Shown piece by piece: positions 29,134 through 37,392 of a stretch of DNA of 64,000 nt (positions are counted from its first letter, which is position 1; every line of letters begins with the position of its first letter). Position numbers and translations under genes: made by a program. Under the pieces are notes generated by a model. It did no database searches, was not told where the DNA came from, and saw only the letters and a list, made by a program, of their open reading frames with translations. The stretch comes from a virus. Where the stretch lies: positions 1 through 64,000 of IMG/VR virus record IMGVR_UViG_3300036715_001865; one strand, 5' to 3'.

Positions 29134-30537
29134 TTAAAATAAACCCGATGTGAAGCTACTAATTGTTCCACTTATACCTTCAATTCCATTCATTAGTCCG
29201 CCTTTACTGCTTGTATTTTGAGGAGACATTGGATTACAAGACTCTTGACCTGTAGTAGGTGTACCATATGGATTAATTCCTTTTGAATTTGGACCTTGAG
29301 TTGAAGATGCATCATCATTATAACGCAATTGGTACACAGCATCACTTTGTGCTCCTCTGAATAGGTCATCTAAATCTTTCATGGACTTAGTTTCAACATA
29401 TACAGAATCATATACAAAGGTTATACCTAATTCACTCCCTTCATTACTAATTGACATATCCACATCGTCAGGCATTAATTGTGTAATTTTAGGATTCAAA
29501 AAATGGTATACATTGACCATTAATCCATAGTCATACACATGATATAATATTATTTCCTTGAAAACACCCTGTTTATTGTCATTATTTAATGGTCCGATGG
29601 ATGCAGCATACTTGTTTGATGTAGCCTGATCACCACCAGATTTAGATAATGTATTATCCTTAAAACTCATACCTAACTGCTCAAATGAATCTTGTGTTGA
29701 TGCTGTTTCTGGTGACATATTTGAAATAGGAGTCATTGCCTTCAAATAAGCTGTATAAAAGGCTGTGGTATTGTTTAATATATCATCATGAAATGTCATA
29801 CTCATTTCTTCAAATTCAGACTTAATAATCACTTTGGTTCTAAAATTATAGAAATTAACATTTTCTGTTTGGTAAGTGATTTTAGGACGAGACGACTTTT
29901 TTACAACAAATGCCATCCCCCTCATAATACTATCCAATTCACTATAACCTGCAGCAGTAATAAATTGTACCATGAATAAAAATTTATACTTAGGCGCTCT
30001 AGCAATCATATCAACAGCATATGGAGATGCTTCACATCTTGGGGTAAGAGCATTCAGCCTATCATCTCCTGGAGTGTAAATACCTCTGGCCAATCTTTCT
30101 AAGTCTTGAAAATCCTGAAGATAATAAGGGATATCAGTAATTTTAAAATGACCTTGTTGAACCTGTTGAAATACTTGCTTAGCCTGTCCCCAAGCTCTAT
30201 TAGCTACATCTGGATTGAAATCTTGTAATGTTTGTATCACTGTTGGTGAAATACCTAAGTGATCCAATATCCAATTAGCTCCTTGGTCAACACTATCTCC
30301 AATTGTTGATGGTAGTGCTCCACACCCAGTTCTAATAGAGTTTGATACACTTGCTATTGTTCGCAACCCTGTTCCTATTGCTCCAGCACCAACACTGTTT
30401 AAAACCTCCAAATCACCAATTTTTCCAATTGAATTAATGGTATTTCTACGGTCAGATACAGCTGAACCAATATCAGCACTACTCTTGGCAGCGAATGCGG
30501 CAGGACACGGCTTTACGCTAAAATTTCTTGGATCCAT
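29134..30537 (-). CDS. Tail-tube initiator / tube-like baseplate protein (gp48/gp54 type)
   Basis: 467 residues from ATG 30537, chosen because AAGGA precedes it by 6 nt while ATG 30555 sits against the promoter. A hydrophilic N-terminus (about 1-150) includes SVDQGANWILDHLGISPTV. The middle (about 190-290: YKFLFMVQFI, KKSSRPKITYQTENVNFYNF, EEMSMTFHDD) has the tail-tube fold pattern of gp19/gp48/gp54. The C-terminus is rich in G, S and N. A diverged partial copy of its residues 76-121 lies at 32283-32424. The exact T4 counterpart is uncertain. Confidence 0.6.
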   Translation of the reverse strand: MDPRNFSVKPCPAAFAAKSSADIGSAVSDRRNTINSIGKIGDLEVLNSVGAGAIGTGLRTIASVSNSIRTGCGALPSTIGDSVDQGANWILDHLGISPTVIQTLQDFNPDVANRAWGQAKQVFQQVQQGHFKITDIPYYLQDFQDLERLARGIYTPGDDRLNALTPRCEASPYAVDMIARAPKYKFLFMVQFITAAGYSELDSIMRGMAFVVKKSSRPKITYQTENVNFYNFRTKVIIKSEFEEMSMTFHDDILNNTTAFYTAYLKAMTPISNMSPETASTQDSFEQLGMSFKDNTLSKSGGDQATSNKYAASIGPLNNDNKQGVFKEIILYHVYDYGLMVNVYHFLNPKITQLMPDDVDMSISNEGSELGITFVYDSVYVETKSMKDLDDLFRGAQSDAVYQLRYNDDASSTQGPNSKGINPYGTPTTGQESCNPMSPQNTSSKGGLMNGIEGISGTISSFTSGLF

Positions 30538-30560
30538 ATTAATTCCTTGTTTCATTTAGG

Positions 30561-30656: not shown

Positions 30657-32213
30657 TTATACAACAGAGCTATTGTTGATAGTATATTTTCGTTTCCCAC
30701 AATCCCATATACGCAATATTCCGTTATTATTACAGTTAACGGTTTCAGATAATGTTGGGTCAAAGTGTTTCAATAACTTTTGTAAGTTTTTGCGTCTATA
30801 GTTAAATTTATGAAACCTATTATAACCATCCGGACTATAATAATAGTCTGGTGGTAAAATACTATCTAATACAAATCCAGTTTTTTCATATAACTGTCCA
30901 TTACTCCACCGGTTATCAGCAAAACTAATAATTTGTGTCCAATTGTGTGATTGTTTAAAGTGTGTTAATATTTTTGAAAACCCTCCCACCACAGTACAAG
31001 ATGTAGCATACCTATTCAAACAAAAAATATTATTTGGTTGTTTAATAAAGGCCATAGCAGCTACTAATGTGCCACCACACTCCAACCCATATGTTATGCT
31101 TCCAGGGCCATCCCCTTGGATATGATGCTCCTCAAAAAATTGTTTTTTTTGATGCTTATCTAATTGGACAACAGTTGTTTTCCGGGCAAACAATTTATGG
31201 ATATGTGCGAAACCCAGTAAATGCATCAATTTGTTGACAACTTGACGTTTTCGCTGTTTCCACTCGTCTTCATAAATAGTTAATAATTGAATACCTTGTT
31301 GTTGACACATATCATGCTTGTGTTTATGATAATGTCTATCTTTTCCTTTTTGTTCACTGTGCCAATATAACCCACAATATTCAATTGCTAAGTTAAACTG
31401 TGGAATATAGATATCCAATTCTAATGGTGATATGATAGTTCTGGTATTAACAACATGCTCAATGTCACAATCTATTAACAGTTGGGACAGTTGCTTGTGC
31501 CCTCCTGACATTCCATAATATTTTGTTTCAATACCATACTTTCTCATATAATTACAAACTGTGGGAACTCCTCCAGTCAACTTCAACTCTTCAGCTATCA
31601 GAGTCAACGATTTCTTATTAGTTAAATGTTGGTCCGTTAGCCAATCAATATTCTGTAATTTTGTTAATGATATTGGATCAATCCATCTATGGGATATATT
31701 TTGAACACCATATTTCAACTGCCAAGTACTAATTCTTTTATTGGTTCGTTGAGTGATATCATTTTGAGTGTACGGATGTAGTAATCTATATTGTTGGGTG
31801 GAGTGTTTTCCTTGGGCGGAAGCTAGGTAATTAGTATGTCCAAATTTATTCAGGTTGGTAATTTTTCTTGCCTGTGTTCCTTTTTTTGTTGCAGCAATCA
31901 ACATCTGAGGGGACTGTTTCCACAACATCCCTGACTGTACCTTAATAGGATCTTTTGATGCACACTGGACACAACAATATTTATTATATTGTTTTTTATC
32001 AGTCTTCCATTTTACCAGAATTGAACAAGATGGGGCAGAACAAATTGGTAAATTATCACCATGTATTATATGCCATAACCTTTGTTGCAATGAACTGTTT
32101 GTTGGTAAAAAATTAGTCTGTTCGATAACCTGTTGCTTAATATGAGCATTGGTTTTTTTTAGATTTAATTCATTCCCATGTTGTTGCCATATTATTGCCT
32201 CTTCCTTTGTCAC
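30657..32213 (-). CDS. Homing endonuclease 1: KRYG-type repeats, Vsr-like nuclease, Mom/GNAT-like C-domain
   Basis: 518 residues, GTG start at 32213. Order: an N-terminal zinc-ribbon-like region (CSAPSCSILVKW, YCCVQCASKD), a repeat of the KxGHTNYLASAQGK type, a helix-turn-helix-like DNA-binding part, a Vsr-like (EDxHD) nuclease at about 250-315 (ELDIYIPQ, AIEYCGLYWHSE, ITIYEDEW), and a C-terminal domain from about 355. The C-domain has HIQGDGPG, GGFSKILTHF, ISFADNRWSNGQLYEKTGF, PDYYYS and RIWDCG. That pattern resembles Mom-type GNAT proteins. It sits between tail genes with its own terminator and a ribosome-site hairpin. Close paralogue of endonuclease 3. Confidence 0.85.
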   Translation of the reverse strand: MTKEEAIIWQQHGNELNLKKTNAHIKQQVIEQTNFLPTNSSLQQRLWHIIHGDNLPICSAPSCSILVKWKTDKKQYNKYCCVQCASKDPIKVQSGMLWKQSPQMLIAATKKGTQARKITNLNKFGHTNYLASAQGKHSTQQYRLLHPYTQNDITQRTNKRISTWQLKYGVQNISHRWIDPISLTKLQNIDWLTDQHLTNKKSLTLIAEELKLTGGVPTVCNYMRKYGIETKYYGMSGGHKQLSQLLIDCDIEHVVNTRTIISPLELDIYIPQFNLAIEYCGLYWHSEQKGKDRHYHKHKHDMCQQQGIQLLTIYEDEWKQRKRQVVNKLMHLLGFAHIHKLFARKTTVVQLDKHQKKQFFEEHHIQGDGPGSITYGLECGGTLVAAMAFIKQPNNIFCLNRYATSCTVVGGFSKILTHFKQSHNWTQIISFADNRWSNGQLYEKTGFVLDSILPPDYYYSPDGYNRFHKFNYRRKNLQKLLKHFDPTLSETVNCNNNGILRIWDCGKRKYTINNSSVV

Positions 32214-32214
32214 A

Positions 32215-32244
32215 AAAATAACTCCTAATTAAAGGAGTTATTTT
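32215..32244 (-). promoter_or_regulatory. Ribosome-site-hiding hairpin before endonuclease 1
   Basis: AAAATAACTCC pairs with GGAGTTATTTT across 8 nt. The GGAG in the 3' arm is the Shine-Dalgarno, 8 nt before the GTG start, so the folded RNA blocks initiation. Confidence 0.75.
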
Positions 32245-32259
32245 AACACAAATACAACA

Positions 32260-32290
32260 TATAATCAACAGATTATATTTTACCTGCCCC
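32260..32290. repeat. Duplicated gp19 3'-end flank, copy 2
   Basis: The stretch containing ATAATCAACAGATTATATTT then TACCTG matches 33610-33642 at the gp19 stop codon (ATAATCAACTGATTAAATTT then TACCTG), with few mismatches. The two copies bracket endonuclease 2 and the tail-gene fragment. Confidence 0.8.
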
Positions 32291-32424
32291 CAAGCTCTAT
32301 TTGCCACATCTGGATTAAAATCCTGTAATGTTTGTATCACTGTGGGTGATATACCTAAATGGTCTAATATCCAATTTGCTCCTTGGTCCACGCTATCTCC
32401 AATAGATGAAGGTAATGCCCCACA
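32283..32424 (-). pseudogene. Fragment of a diverged tube-initiator-like gene
   Basis: About 141 bp match 30183-30323 of the intact tail gene. By eye there are about 18 mismatches, yet the encoded stretch (ALPSSIGDSVDQGANWIL onward to ANRAWGQ) differs at one residue only. The fragment has no start or continuation and is read partly out of frame by the end of endonuclease 2. It is a captured piece of a homologous gene from a related phage, not a recent copy of the local gene. Confidence 0.88.
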
Positions 32425-33527
32425 AAATCTGATTCCCACATAACAACCAGATTATAACCTAGTGATTTTATTAGGTTTTCTCTTTCGATAGTTTTTTGGT
32501 ATAGCTCGCCCATTGATTTTCCATTCACTTCATTAATTTCATTTGGTGGATAAATTATTGGATTTCCGTGCCAATAATCACCATGAAACTCATAGATTGT
32601 ATTTGTTTCTTCACAGTACCCATCAGCTCTATATCTAGTAGATGGTATTTTCCACTCAGATATTATCTCATAATCTTGTTGAGTTAGCCAGAGTTGGCAC
32701 TTATATGAACTCCAAAAATATTGTCTAATTTCAATTTCGTAATGTCGTAAGTGTGAAAGTATAGTTCCATATGTAATAACATCTAATTCACTGGCAATTT
32801 GAGTAGCAGTTTTGTTTTGTGTAATGTATTGATCAAATAACCAATTATAATCCTCTATTAATGGGAGAATATCCACCATATGTTGTTGACTAGCATGTTT
32901 AACACCATATTTCAATATATTATTATTTGCCCTTTTATTTTTAATTTCTTGTGTTTGTGATGCTCTTATTACCCCATATTTTTTCATATGAGTGGAGGTT
33001 ATAGCATCCTGTACTTGCTTTGTTTGTACTGGAAATACTGTACCATACTTTATCATACAAGTATTATTTCTTTTTTGTCTAACAATAGGGCTTTGTGATG
33101 AATGATGTACACCATATTTCTTTAGATTAGTAGCTACTGTGTTTACTTTCCCACTAGCTGATTGGGCAGCATATTCTACACCATACCTCTCTATCATTGT
33201 TTGTTTTTGTTTTTGTTGTATCAGATCAGAAGACATAGGATTTTTTGTCCCATATCTAATTAAATTGGTAGCAGCTGCTTTGTCTTTTAATTGTGCTGAT
33301 TGCATTGGATTTTCAACACCATACCTCTTTACCATTGTTTGTTTTTGTTTTGCTTGTTGAGATAACTTATCTTGCTTTGCACAACTAGCACTACAATATG
33401 TATTAAATTGTCCCCCAGTAGCCACATTTCTCCATTTTACCTCAGTAGGACACATTTTACACAACACAGGATATGTCTTATGGTGTTTATCTAACCAACC
33501 TTGTTGAATATCAGATATCTTTTTCAT
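32364..33527 (-). CDS. Homing endonuclease 2: KRYG repeats and Vsr-like nuclease, no Mom/GNAT domain
   Basis: 387 residues from ATG 33527 (TTG 33539 possible). A zinc-ribbon (CKMCPTEVKW, YCSASCAKQD) is followed by five KRYGVxxxxQS-type repeats (about 65-205). A helix-turn-helix-like stretch and a Vsr-like nuclease (about 285-370: YRADGY, YEFHGDYWHGNP, LGYNLVVMWESDF) follow. The last 18 or so residues are out-of-frame reading of the tail-gene fragment, so the natural C-terminus is near VMWESDF. The ribosome-site hairpin upstream points to an ATG at 33564 in another frame that stops after 17 codons, suggesting an N-terminal frameshift. Confidence 0.8.
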   Translation of the reverse strand: MKKISDIQQGWLDKHHKTYPVLCKMCPTEVKWRNVATGGQFNTYCSASCAKQDKLSQQAKQKQTMVKRYGVENPMQSAQLKDKAAATNLIRYGTKNPMSSDLIQQKQKQTMIERYGVEYAAQSASGKVNTVATNLKKYGVHHSSQSPIVRQKRNNTCMIKYGTVFPVQTKQVQDAITSTHMKKYGVIRASQTQEIKNKRANNNILKYGVKHASQQHMVDILPLIEDYNWLFDQYITQNKTATQIASELDVITYGTILSHLRHYEIEIRQYFWSSYKCQLWLTQQDYEIISEWKIPSTRYRADGYCEETNTIYEFHGDYWHGNPIIYPPNEINEVNGKSMGELYQKTIERENLIKSLGYNLVVMWESDFVGHYLHLLEIAWTKEQIGY

Positions 33528-33564
33528 AGTCCCAACCAACTGCTAATTTGTGTACCCTAGACAT

Positions 33565-33592
33565 AATAAACTCCTATTGAAAGGAGTTTATT
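33565..33592 (-). promoter_or_regulatory. Ribosome-site-hiding hairpin before endonuclease 2
   Basis: AATAAACTCC pairs perfectly with GGAGTTTATT across 8 nt. GGAG lies 6 nt before ATG 33564. Same design as at endonucleases 1, 3 and 4; it could also act as a terminator for gp19. Confidence 0.7.
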
Positions 33593-33609
33593 ATAAACCA
33601 CATAAGTAA

Positions 33610-33642
33610 AATAATCAACTGATTAAATTTTACCTGCACCCC
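33610..33642. repeat. gp19 3'-end flank, copy 1
   Basis: End of gene 19 (codons for Gly-Ala-Gly-Lys-Ile and stop) plus downstream bases, repeated at 32260-32290. It marks the insertion boundary of the endonuclease 2 cassette. Confidence 0.8.
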
Positions 33643-34210
33643 CTGTAGCAATCCCCGGACCCTGTGAATATCCTCCAAGTACTTGTCTTGCATGGTCAAA
33701 ACTGATTACAACAGCTAGTTCAACTGGATCACCTGTTTCATATGCCAACTCTGCATAATCAATACTTTCAATCCAACAACCTTCAATTGTCCATTTTTCA
33801 ATCACTTGATCATTACCATCTAACATATCTAAGTAACTAACAAACTTATATAATGAACCTTCCCCAGCAGCCGCGAGCCATTGACCTTCAGCCCCAATTA
33901 ACCACTGTTGTTTTTGTTCCTGTGCTTGTAATACTCGAGATGCAGTTCCAGTAACATCATCTTGAATCGTAAGGTTCATTGGTTCCCACGAATGTTTACC
34001 AGCAATATATGAAATTGAGTTATAACGATGCAATGTTATTTTCTCATGTTTTAATTGTGGTCTACTAACCTTTGTTGTTTGCATAGATATTGGCTGACTA
34101 TCTGTTCCACCACCCATGTTCGCAAAGGTGATTCTCCATCTATTTTTGTGTTTTGGGTGTAGGATACCTGTTCCAACACCTGGAATCCCTATATCATTAA
34201 TTGTTGACAT
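33623..34210 (-). CDS. 19: gp19 tail tube protein
   Basis: 195 residues (T4 gp19: 163). Tail-tube pattern: HKNRWRITFANMG near the N-terminus, VSRPQLKHEKITLHRYNSISY, EPMNLTIQDDV, and IEGCWIESIDYAELAYETGDPVELAV. It polymerises as the inner tube inside the gp18 sheath. Ribosome site AGGAG and an exact late promoter 28 nt upstream are present. Endonuclease genes lie on both sides, between it and gp18 and between it and the tube initiator. Confidence 0.95.
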   Translation of the reverse strand: MSTINDIGIPGVGTGILHPKHKNRWRITFANMGGGTDSQPISMQTTKVSRPQLKHEKITLHRYNSISYIAGKHSWEPMNLTIQDDVTGTASRVLQAQEQKQQWLIGAEGQWLAAAGEGSLYKFVSYLDMLDGNDQVIEKWTIEGCWIESIDYAELAYETGDPVELAVVISFDHARQVLGGYSQGPGIATGGAGKI

Positions 34211-35738: not shown

Positions 35739-35799
35739 AAAAAACTCCTATTTTTATTAATATTATATAGGAGTTTTTTGTTTTTTACAACATTACTTA
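35725..35799. repeat. 75-bp direct repeat, copy 1 (leader of endonuclease 3)
   Basis: Matches 37318-37392 with about one internal mismatch. It spans the first codons of endonuclease 3, the hairpin and the 3' end of endonuclease 4. Confidence 0.92.
35739..35779 (-). promoter_or_regulatory. Ribosome-site-hiding hairpin before endonuclease 3
   Basis: AAAAAACTCCTAT pairs with ATAGGAGTTTTTT over 13 bp with a 15-nt loop. AGGAG in the 3' arm is 6 nt before GTG. The loop/arm contains TATTAATA, one base off the late promoter core and placed so that a transcript from it would leave the ribosome site free. Confidence 0.78.
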
Positions 35800-37331: not shown

Positions 37332-37392
37332 AAAAAACTCCTATTTTTATTAATATTATATAGGAGTTTTTTGTTTTTTACAACACTACTTA
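37318..37392. repeat. 75-bp direct repeat, copy 2 (leader of endonuclease 4, after gp18)
   Basis: Same 75 bases as 35725-35799 apart from about one mismatch. The copy abuts the gp18 stop codon. Confidence 0.92.
37332..37372 (-). promoter_or_regulatory. Ribosome-site-hiding hairpin before endonuclease 4
   Basis: Identical to the hairpin before endonuclease 3: 13-bp arms, AGGAG in the 3' arm, 6 nt before GTG. Confidence 0.78.

Follow-up and report, generated by a model that had tools for sequence, protein, structure and literature searches.

Introduction

Imprecise repair after homing has been described for the td intron of phage T4, in which one-sided homology leads to the other side being joined at microhomologies (Parker et al. 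1999, as summarized in PMC2988022). HEG-islands, with HEGs at the boundaries of exchange around tail genes, have been reported by Barth, Dunham and Seed (2023, PMC10448857). The expression of such genes can be tightly regulated, as shown for I-TevI, segB and mobE, which are under translational control through a hairpin hiding the ribosome-binding site and are transcribed from late or middle promoters (PMC2988022).

Here a tail locus of a large phage was analyzed in a window covering bases 1-64000 of a 190,391-bp IMG/VR virus record. As far as the available account of T4 td repair goes, the locus shares with it the one-sided homology, the microhomology junction and the heterologous DNA carried along, but it is a natural fossil in a tail operon, with free-standing endonucleases, a presumed break and a site already occupied by a second endonuclease. 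It also resembles the HEG-islands in that endonucleases flank essential tail genes and that one location holds different endonucleases across phages, whereas the present spacer holds a probable newcomer stacked on a resident, with both parents still visible in the join, a type of scar absent from the available text of PMC10448857. The kinds of nuclease and, within that same text, the occurrence of endonucleases at exchange boundaries near tail genes are already known; the natural scar with both parents readable and the stacking of a newcomer on a resident are new. A literature search for a gene fragment left next to a homing endonuclease returned nothing pertinent.

Gene content of the tail locus

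On the minus strand, the locus comprises, in order, the tail sheath gene (39128-37395), endonuclease 4 (37331-35793), endonuclease 3 (35738-34272), a gp19-like tail tube gene (33623..34210), endonuclease 2 (32364..33539), a gene fragment, endonuclease 1 (30657..32213) and an intact tube-initiator-like gene (29134..30555), beyond which lie a TnsA-like head-closure gene and the small and large terminase genes. The 195-aa tube protein matched PHROG 4542 (tail tube, E 8.9e-42) and shared 81% identity with the tube gene of the outgroup contig L002. The 473-aa product of the tube-initiator-like gene (hereafter the initiator) matched PHROG 4542 over residues 186-399 (E 3e-12) and shared 74% identity with its L002 counterpart; its label, based on this tail-tube domain and on gene position, is putative and not proven.

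Endonuclease 1 (518 aa) and endonuclease 2 (391 aa from a TTG codon, the ATG at 33527 being the likely true start) both matched the homing-endonuclease family PHROG 3339, with E values of 2.2e-106 and 6.9e-28, respectively. Endonuclease 1 also matched the catalytic domain of I-Bth0305I (3r3p), a free-standing Vsr-like/EDxHD enzyme, over residues 240-320 (E 0.0016), a weak match and the sole one in the PDB, and by sequence would belong to the I-Bth0305I-like group of the EDxHD family. Endonuclease 2 matched DUF7487 (E 3.6e-29). The best PDB match of its predicted model was 1vsr (E 3.2e-3, probability 1.00, target TM 0.45), with 3r3p also listed; Vsr is thus the nearest structure to the model, and endonuclease 2 is predicted to represent a subfamily other than that of endonuclease 1, of the DUF7487 type with a Vsr-like core. 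It has relatives of the F-LimIII type (Dickeya phage LIMEstone1) in named phages, which differ from it in sharing at most about 30% identity among the long matches listed, and endonuclease 2 bears a DUF7487 repeat region.

A PDB sequence-profile search with endonuclease 2 gave nothing useful, and a literature search found no paper joining DUF7487 with homing endonucleases. Protein searches of phage records with the initiator and endonuclease 2 retrieved distant relatives only, while a near-identity search of phage records and a search of GTDB genome contigs returned no match. The C-terminal half of endonuclease 2 (32428-32896) shared 80% DNA identity with a paralogue at about 99.2-99.7 kb of the record and its N-terminal part was closer to other endonucleases (e.g. 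e8 at 77 kb), the pattern of a domain-shuffled gene. Elsewhere in the record (about 118-120.5 kb; L042 13957-16515), the gene for the small subunit of ribonucleotide reductase seems to be split into three parts, extein with intein N, a GIY-YIG-like open frame, and intein C with extein, resembling a fractured split-intein gene.

A fragment of a second initiator gene

Between endonucleases 2 and 1 lies an apparently foreign 142-bp fragment of an initiator gene (32283..32424, minus strand) that corresponds to codons 78-124 and aligns without gaps to 30183..30324 of the intact local gene on the same strand, with 124 of 142 positions identical (87.3%, E ~1e-42). The 18 differences fall at two first and 16 third codon positions and cause a single residue change, T84S, in agreement with a previous sequence-only reading that had placed the same differences in 141 bp. 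When the same mutation types were dealt randomly, 11.5 residue changes were expected on average and none of 20,000 trials gave one or fewer; the corresponding dS and dN values were ~0.94 and ~0.009. Since the divergence is almost entirely synonymous, it built up under purifying selection while both were functional genes, and the reduction to a fragment is only recent. This strong synonymous excess on the exact alignment supports the earlier proposal that the fragment would derive from a functional initiator homologue of a related phage. No further pieces of the initiator, tube or sheath gene were found elsewhere in the 190-kb record. The possibility that the parts form a single uninterrupted gene was rejected, as they lie in different reading frames, and no relative shows such a gene.

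A separate segment of about 48 bp at ~140.4 kb of the record (L043 16359-16406) resembles a decayed start of the L043 17613 gene and is located just upstream of endonuclease gene e10. Its TGNGHIT codons encode the same residues and are synonymously different, and the match is short, with 2 of 500 shuffles scoring as high; judged from sequence, the segment is perhaps a second flanking-gene scar.

Junctions and the fused end of endonuclease 2

The first junction (32424..32428, minus strand) joins the 3′ end of endonuclease 2 to initiator codon 78, with about 2 bp of microhomology at most. The DNA of endonuclease 2 resembles that of its nearest paralogue, located at 99 kb, as far as 32428, four bases short of the point (32424) where the initiator match starts. 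As a result, the last 20 residues of endonuclease 2 are fragment sequence read out of frame, a feature missed in the sequence-only reading. Relatives of endonuclease 2 mostly stop 0-10 aa past the WESDF position, with unrelated endings; since endonuclease 2, unlike these, runs 20 residues into the fragment, its own stop codon was lost at this junction.

At the second junction (32283..32291, minus strand), the fragment of the initiator gene and the 3′ end of gp19 share GGGGGCAGG, which is read as GCT TGG GGG CAG in the initiator context and as GGG GCA GGT at the gp19 end. The shared sequence spans between 5 bp (GCAGG) and 9 bp, which bears out the microhomology earlier proposed for the right junction.

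Repetition of the gp19 end and of the endonuclease leader

The 3′ end of gp19 occurs twice on the minus strand, once at the true gene end (33610..33642, including the -35 box of the endonuclease 2 promoter) and again at 32259..32291, with 28 of 33 positions matching. The 22-bp part without the promoter box matches at 19 positions and finds no other match of 17 or more in the record. In the gp19 frame, the second copy reads GGG GCA GGT AAA ATA TAA (G-A-G-K-I-stop) with two changes, both synonymous, which marks it as the terminus of gp19 from another phage, still attached to the endonuclease 1 leader.

Beyond the gp19 end, the repeat takes in the promoter and the hairpin and reaches the endonuclease start codons (32212-32291 against 33561-33641, 77.8% identity over 81 columns), so that the repeated unit is the gp19 end plus leader. 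In the sequence-only reading, the gp19 copies had been taken as brackets of an inserted cassette that had duplicated the gp19 end. The repetition itself stands, but the second copy starts the leader of endonuclease 1 rather than closing a bracket, and the synonymous differences point to two phages instead of a fresh duplication. The arrangement reads as two tandem units, each consisting of a gp19 end, a leader and an endonuclease.

The leader of endonuclease 2 (minus strand, as for endonuclease 1) contains a promoter-like TTGATT-17-TATAAT (33590..33618), a sequence match only, that begins just past the gp19 stop codon, and a hairpin (33564..33593, z -4.6) with the Shine-Dalgarno sequence AGGAG in its 3′ arm. 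The corresponding leader of endonuclease 1 (32214..32268) contains TTGATT-17-TAAAAT at 32240-32268 and a hairpin at 32214-32244, again with AGGAG in the 3′ arm. Stable hairpins of this type occur in the leaders of endonucleases 1-4 (z -4.6 to -5.6). The pattern TTGnnn-17-TAWAAT was found within 110 nt of the start in 9 out of 10 related endonuclease genes and in 12 out of 155 other open frames of the record (Fisher p 1.4e-8, a value that is descriptive only because the pattern was framed after seeing the leaders, two leaders are identical and the comparison set is mechanical).

Since the -10 box is at or ahead of the hairpin loop, RNA started at this promoter would contain little of the 5′ arm. 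The position of the Shine-Dalgarno sequence in the 3′ arm and this promoter placement are the features that the leaders appear to share with I-TevI, segB and mobE. In contrast to the T4 late or middle promoters of these genes, the promoters here are sigma-70 host-like (TTGATT-17-TATAAT), so that the timing of expression would differ; the hairpin region contained no late phage promoter, the sigma-70-like pattern being that of the nine endonuclease genes above. The leaders may therefore be described as matching I-TevI-type regulation in layout without being strict members of the type.

Several other leaders showed related features. Those of endonucleases 3 and 4 (35739-35792 and 37332-37385), a second tandem pair located in the sheath-tube spacer, are 54 bp long and 100% identical, and the 54-bp leader exactly fills the gap from the endonuclease 4 stop to the endonuclease 3 start. 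At 33540-33564, the hairpin leader of endonuclease 2 points at the ATG of a 17-codon frame, MSRVHKLAVGWDYEKDI, that overlaps the likely true endonuclease 2 start (ATG 33527) in another frame; this overlap could reflect a frameshift, translational coupling or the acquisition of a leader by exchange with another endonuclease. In L075 (3934-4002), a T4-like late promoter, TATAAATA, lies directly ahead of the hairpin of an endonuclease 1 homologue, and its difference from the sigma-70-like promoters of the present phage suggests, on sequence comparison, promoter swapping between phages.

Occupancy of the tube-initiator spacer in related phages

Homologues of endonuclease 1 were located via the tube gene, as close patterns searched in IMG/VR returned the same phage only. 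In L002, sheath, tube and initiator are directly adjacent without an endonuclease, and the tube-initiator spacer is likewise empty in L049, L050, L054 and many other contigs, where tube and initiator are plain neighbors. The spacer holds an endonuclease 1 homologue alone in L067, an endonuclease 1 homologue in L075 (a contig that ends inside the gene) and a different endonuclease in L094 and L103. Endonuclease 1 thus shows a presence/absence polymorphism at a fixed site. The sheath-tube spacer of L075 contains an endonuclease-3-like gene.

A phylogenetic tree united endonuclease 1 and the tube-initiator genes of L067 and L075 in one group (support 91/91) and placed endonuclease 3 together with the L075 sheath-tube gene (support 97/98). 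This grouping by spacer indicates that endonuclease lineages keep to their spacers; on these sequence relationships, the tube-initiator spacer appears to be an old endonuclease site with endonuclease 1 as its resident lineage, and endonucleases 2 and 4 are likely newcomers. For endonuclease 2, relatives of which occur elsewhere, outside this spacer, newcomer status is probable. Among the bases that distinguish the local gene from the fragment, L002 shares 11 with the former and 3 with the latter, which points weakly to the local initiator allele as the less derived of the two.

The claim that endonuclease 2 travelled with a foreign fragment is upheld in part: newcomer status is favored by the site-bound lineage of endonuclease 1, and the foreign side is not proven. 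A search of IMG/VR for endonuclease 2 beside an intact initiator in a related phage found none, and a degenerate pattern for the fragment region retrieved from IMG/VR only L002 and a contig of the same phage, giving no donor. As the donor phage was not found, we infer both the polarity of transfer and the causal role of the nuclease.

Origin of the scar

Both the fragment and the gp19-end copy have diverged synonymously, and therefore both come from genes that were functional in a second, related lineage. The gp19 side is continuous and the other side is joined by microhomology at GGGGGCAGG (32283-32291), as would be expected of one-sided repair. In our view, the locus is probably a product of one-sided, illegitimate repair of a double-strand break, with two related phages as the partners and this sequence as the point of joining; the earlier view of an ectopic recombination scar beside homing endonucleases is supported in this form. 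The two phages would have differed in the homing endonuclease that occupied the tube-initiator spacer or its vicinity. In the recipient the order would have been gp19 - leader - endonuclease 1 - initiator, and in the donor gp19 - leader - endonuclease 2, an initiator gene of the donor lying close by. Close to its gp19 3′ end, the recipient would have suffered a double-strand break, which may have been made by endonuclease 2 (or 1), and this break would have been repaired from the donor. On the gp19 side, ordinary homology would have brought in endonuclease 2. On the far side there would have been no matching sequence, so that the repair tract would have stopped inside the donor initiator gene, GGGGGCAGG then serving to link it to what was left of the recipient's gp19 end. 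The stretch from endonuclease 2 to initiator codon 78, and with it the endonuclease 2 stop codon, would have disappeared either at the same time or afterwards; the roles of donor and recipient and the succession of the two junctions are presumptive. The product would be gp19 - leader - endonuclease 2 - donor initiator piece, followed by recipient gp19 end - leader - endonuclease 1 - initiator. Against this reading, the first junction needs a second deletion or a template switch.

A plain illegitimate crossover of co-infecting phages at the 9-bp match, with no endonuclease cut and the endonucleases as bystanders, would give the same tandem, and microhomology suffices for it. Moreover, other contigs contained no comparable tail-gene scars at homologous endonucleases, save for tandem paralogues, which makes the event a rare one that need not have involved a nuclease. 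However, both junctions are at the edges of endonuclease genes, one of them only a few bases away from the 3′ end of such a gene, and endonuclease genes are known at exchange boundaries from the available text of PMC10448857; we regard such a crossover as possible though unlikely.

In both tail spacers, the likely newcomer is upstream of the site-specific resident, and the boundary between them bears a second copy of the leader (54 bp at 100% for endonucleases 4 and 3, 81 bp at 78% for endonucleases 2 and 1). This could mean that a shared leader, made up of gene end, sigma-70-like promoter and hairpin, lets newcomers stack on residents, the arrays growing leader by leader with capture of pieces of neighboring genes as a by-product, a proposal that we hold to be doubtful.

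The polarity might also be the reverse, with the gp19/endonuclease 2/fragment lineage as resident, endonuclease 1 and the intact initiator as incoming, and the fragment as a stump of the old allele. The junctions by themselves are symmetric and conversion of flanking genes by endonucleases is possible (PMC2988022), but the endonuclease 1 lineage is tied to the spacer in two other phages while endonuclease 2 relatives lie elsewhere, and L002 sides, as weak evidence, with the local gene; reverse polarity is in our estimate rather improbable.

It is very unlikely that the fragment has been kept for a function, for example by providing endonuclease 2 with a 20-residue tail or with a homology arm that would aid its spread into initiator genes. 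The frame does stay open for 20 codons behind a nuclease core that is predicted intact (pLDDT >90), but the tail is predicted at low confidence (pLDDT 74 to 42) and, as noted above, relatives mostly end earlier and with unrelated sequences.

Duplication within a single genome, by which the fragment would have been copied from the local initiator only 2 kb away and then drifted, is refuted as a sole explanation, as a free non-coding copy would have gained replacements well beyond the one observed; it survives only if the intact local allele was later replaced, which makes it highly improbable. Least credible is an assembly chimera of two strains, which the virus-contig origin of the record and the strain-level divergence of the pieces might suggest, since a second contig of the same phage (3300037010_001709, L001), the sample of which may be related to that of the window, is 100% identical over 9 kb with both junctions included.

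Implications for homing in phage tail operons

It was in crosses of T4 that imprecise repair following homing was elucidated, and this scar from the wild would show it acting on essential tail genes, with both parental alleles still readable from their synonymous differences. The scar also narrows the candidate cut region to the gp19 3′ end or initiator codons 78-124. At this locus, competing endonucleases would have settled in tandem at one spacer instead of replacing each other.
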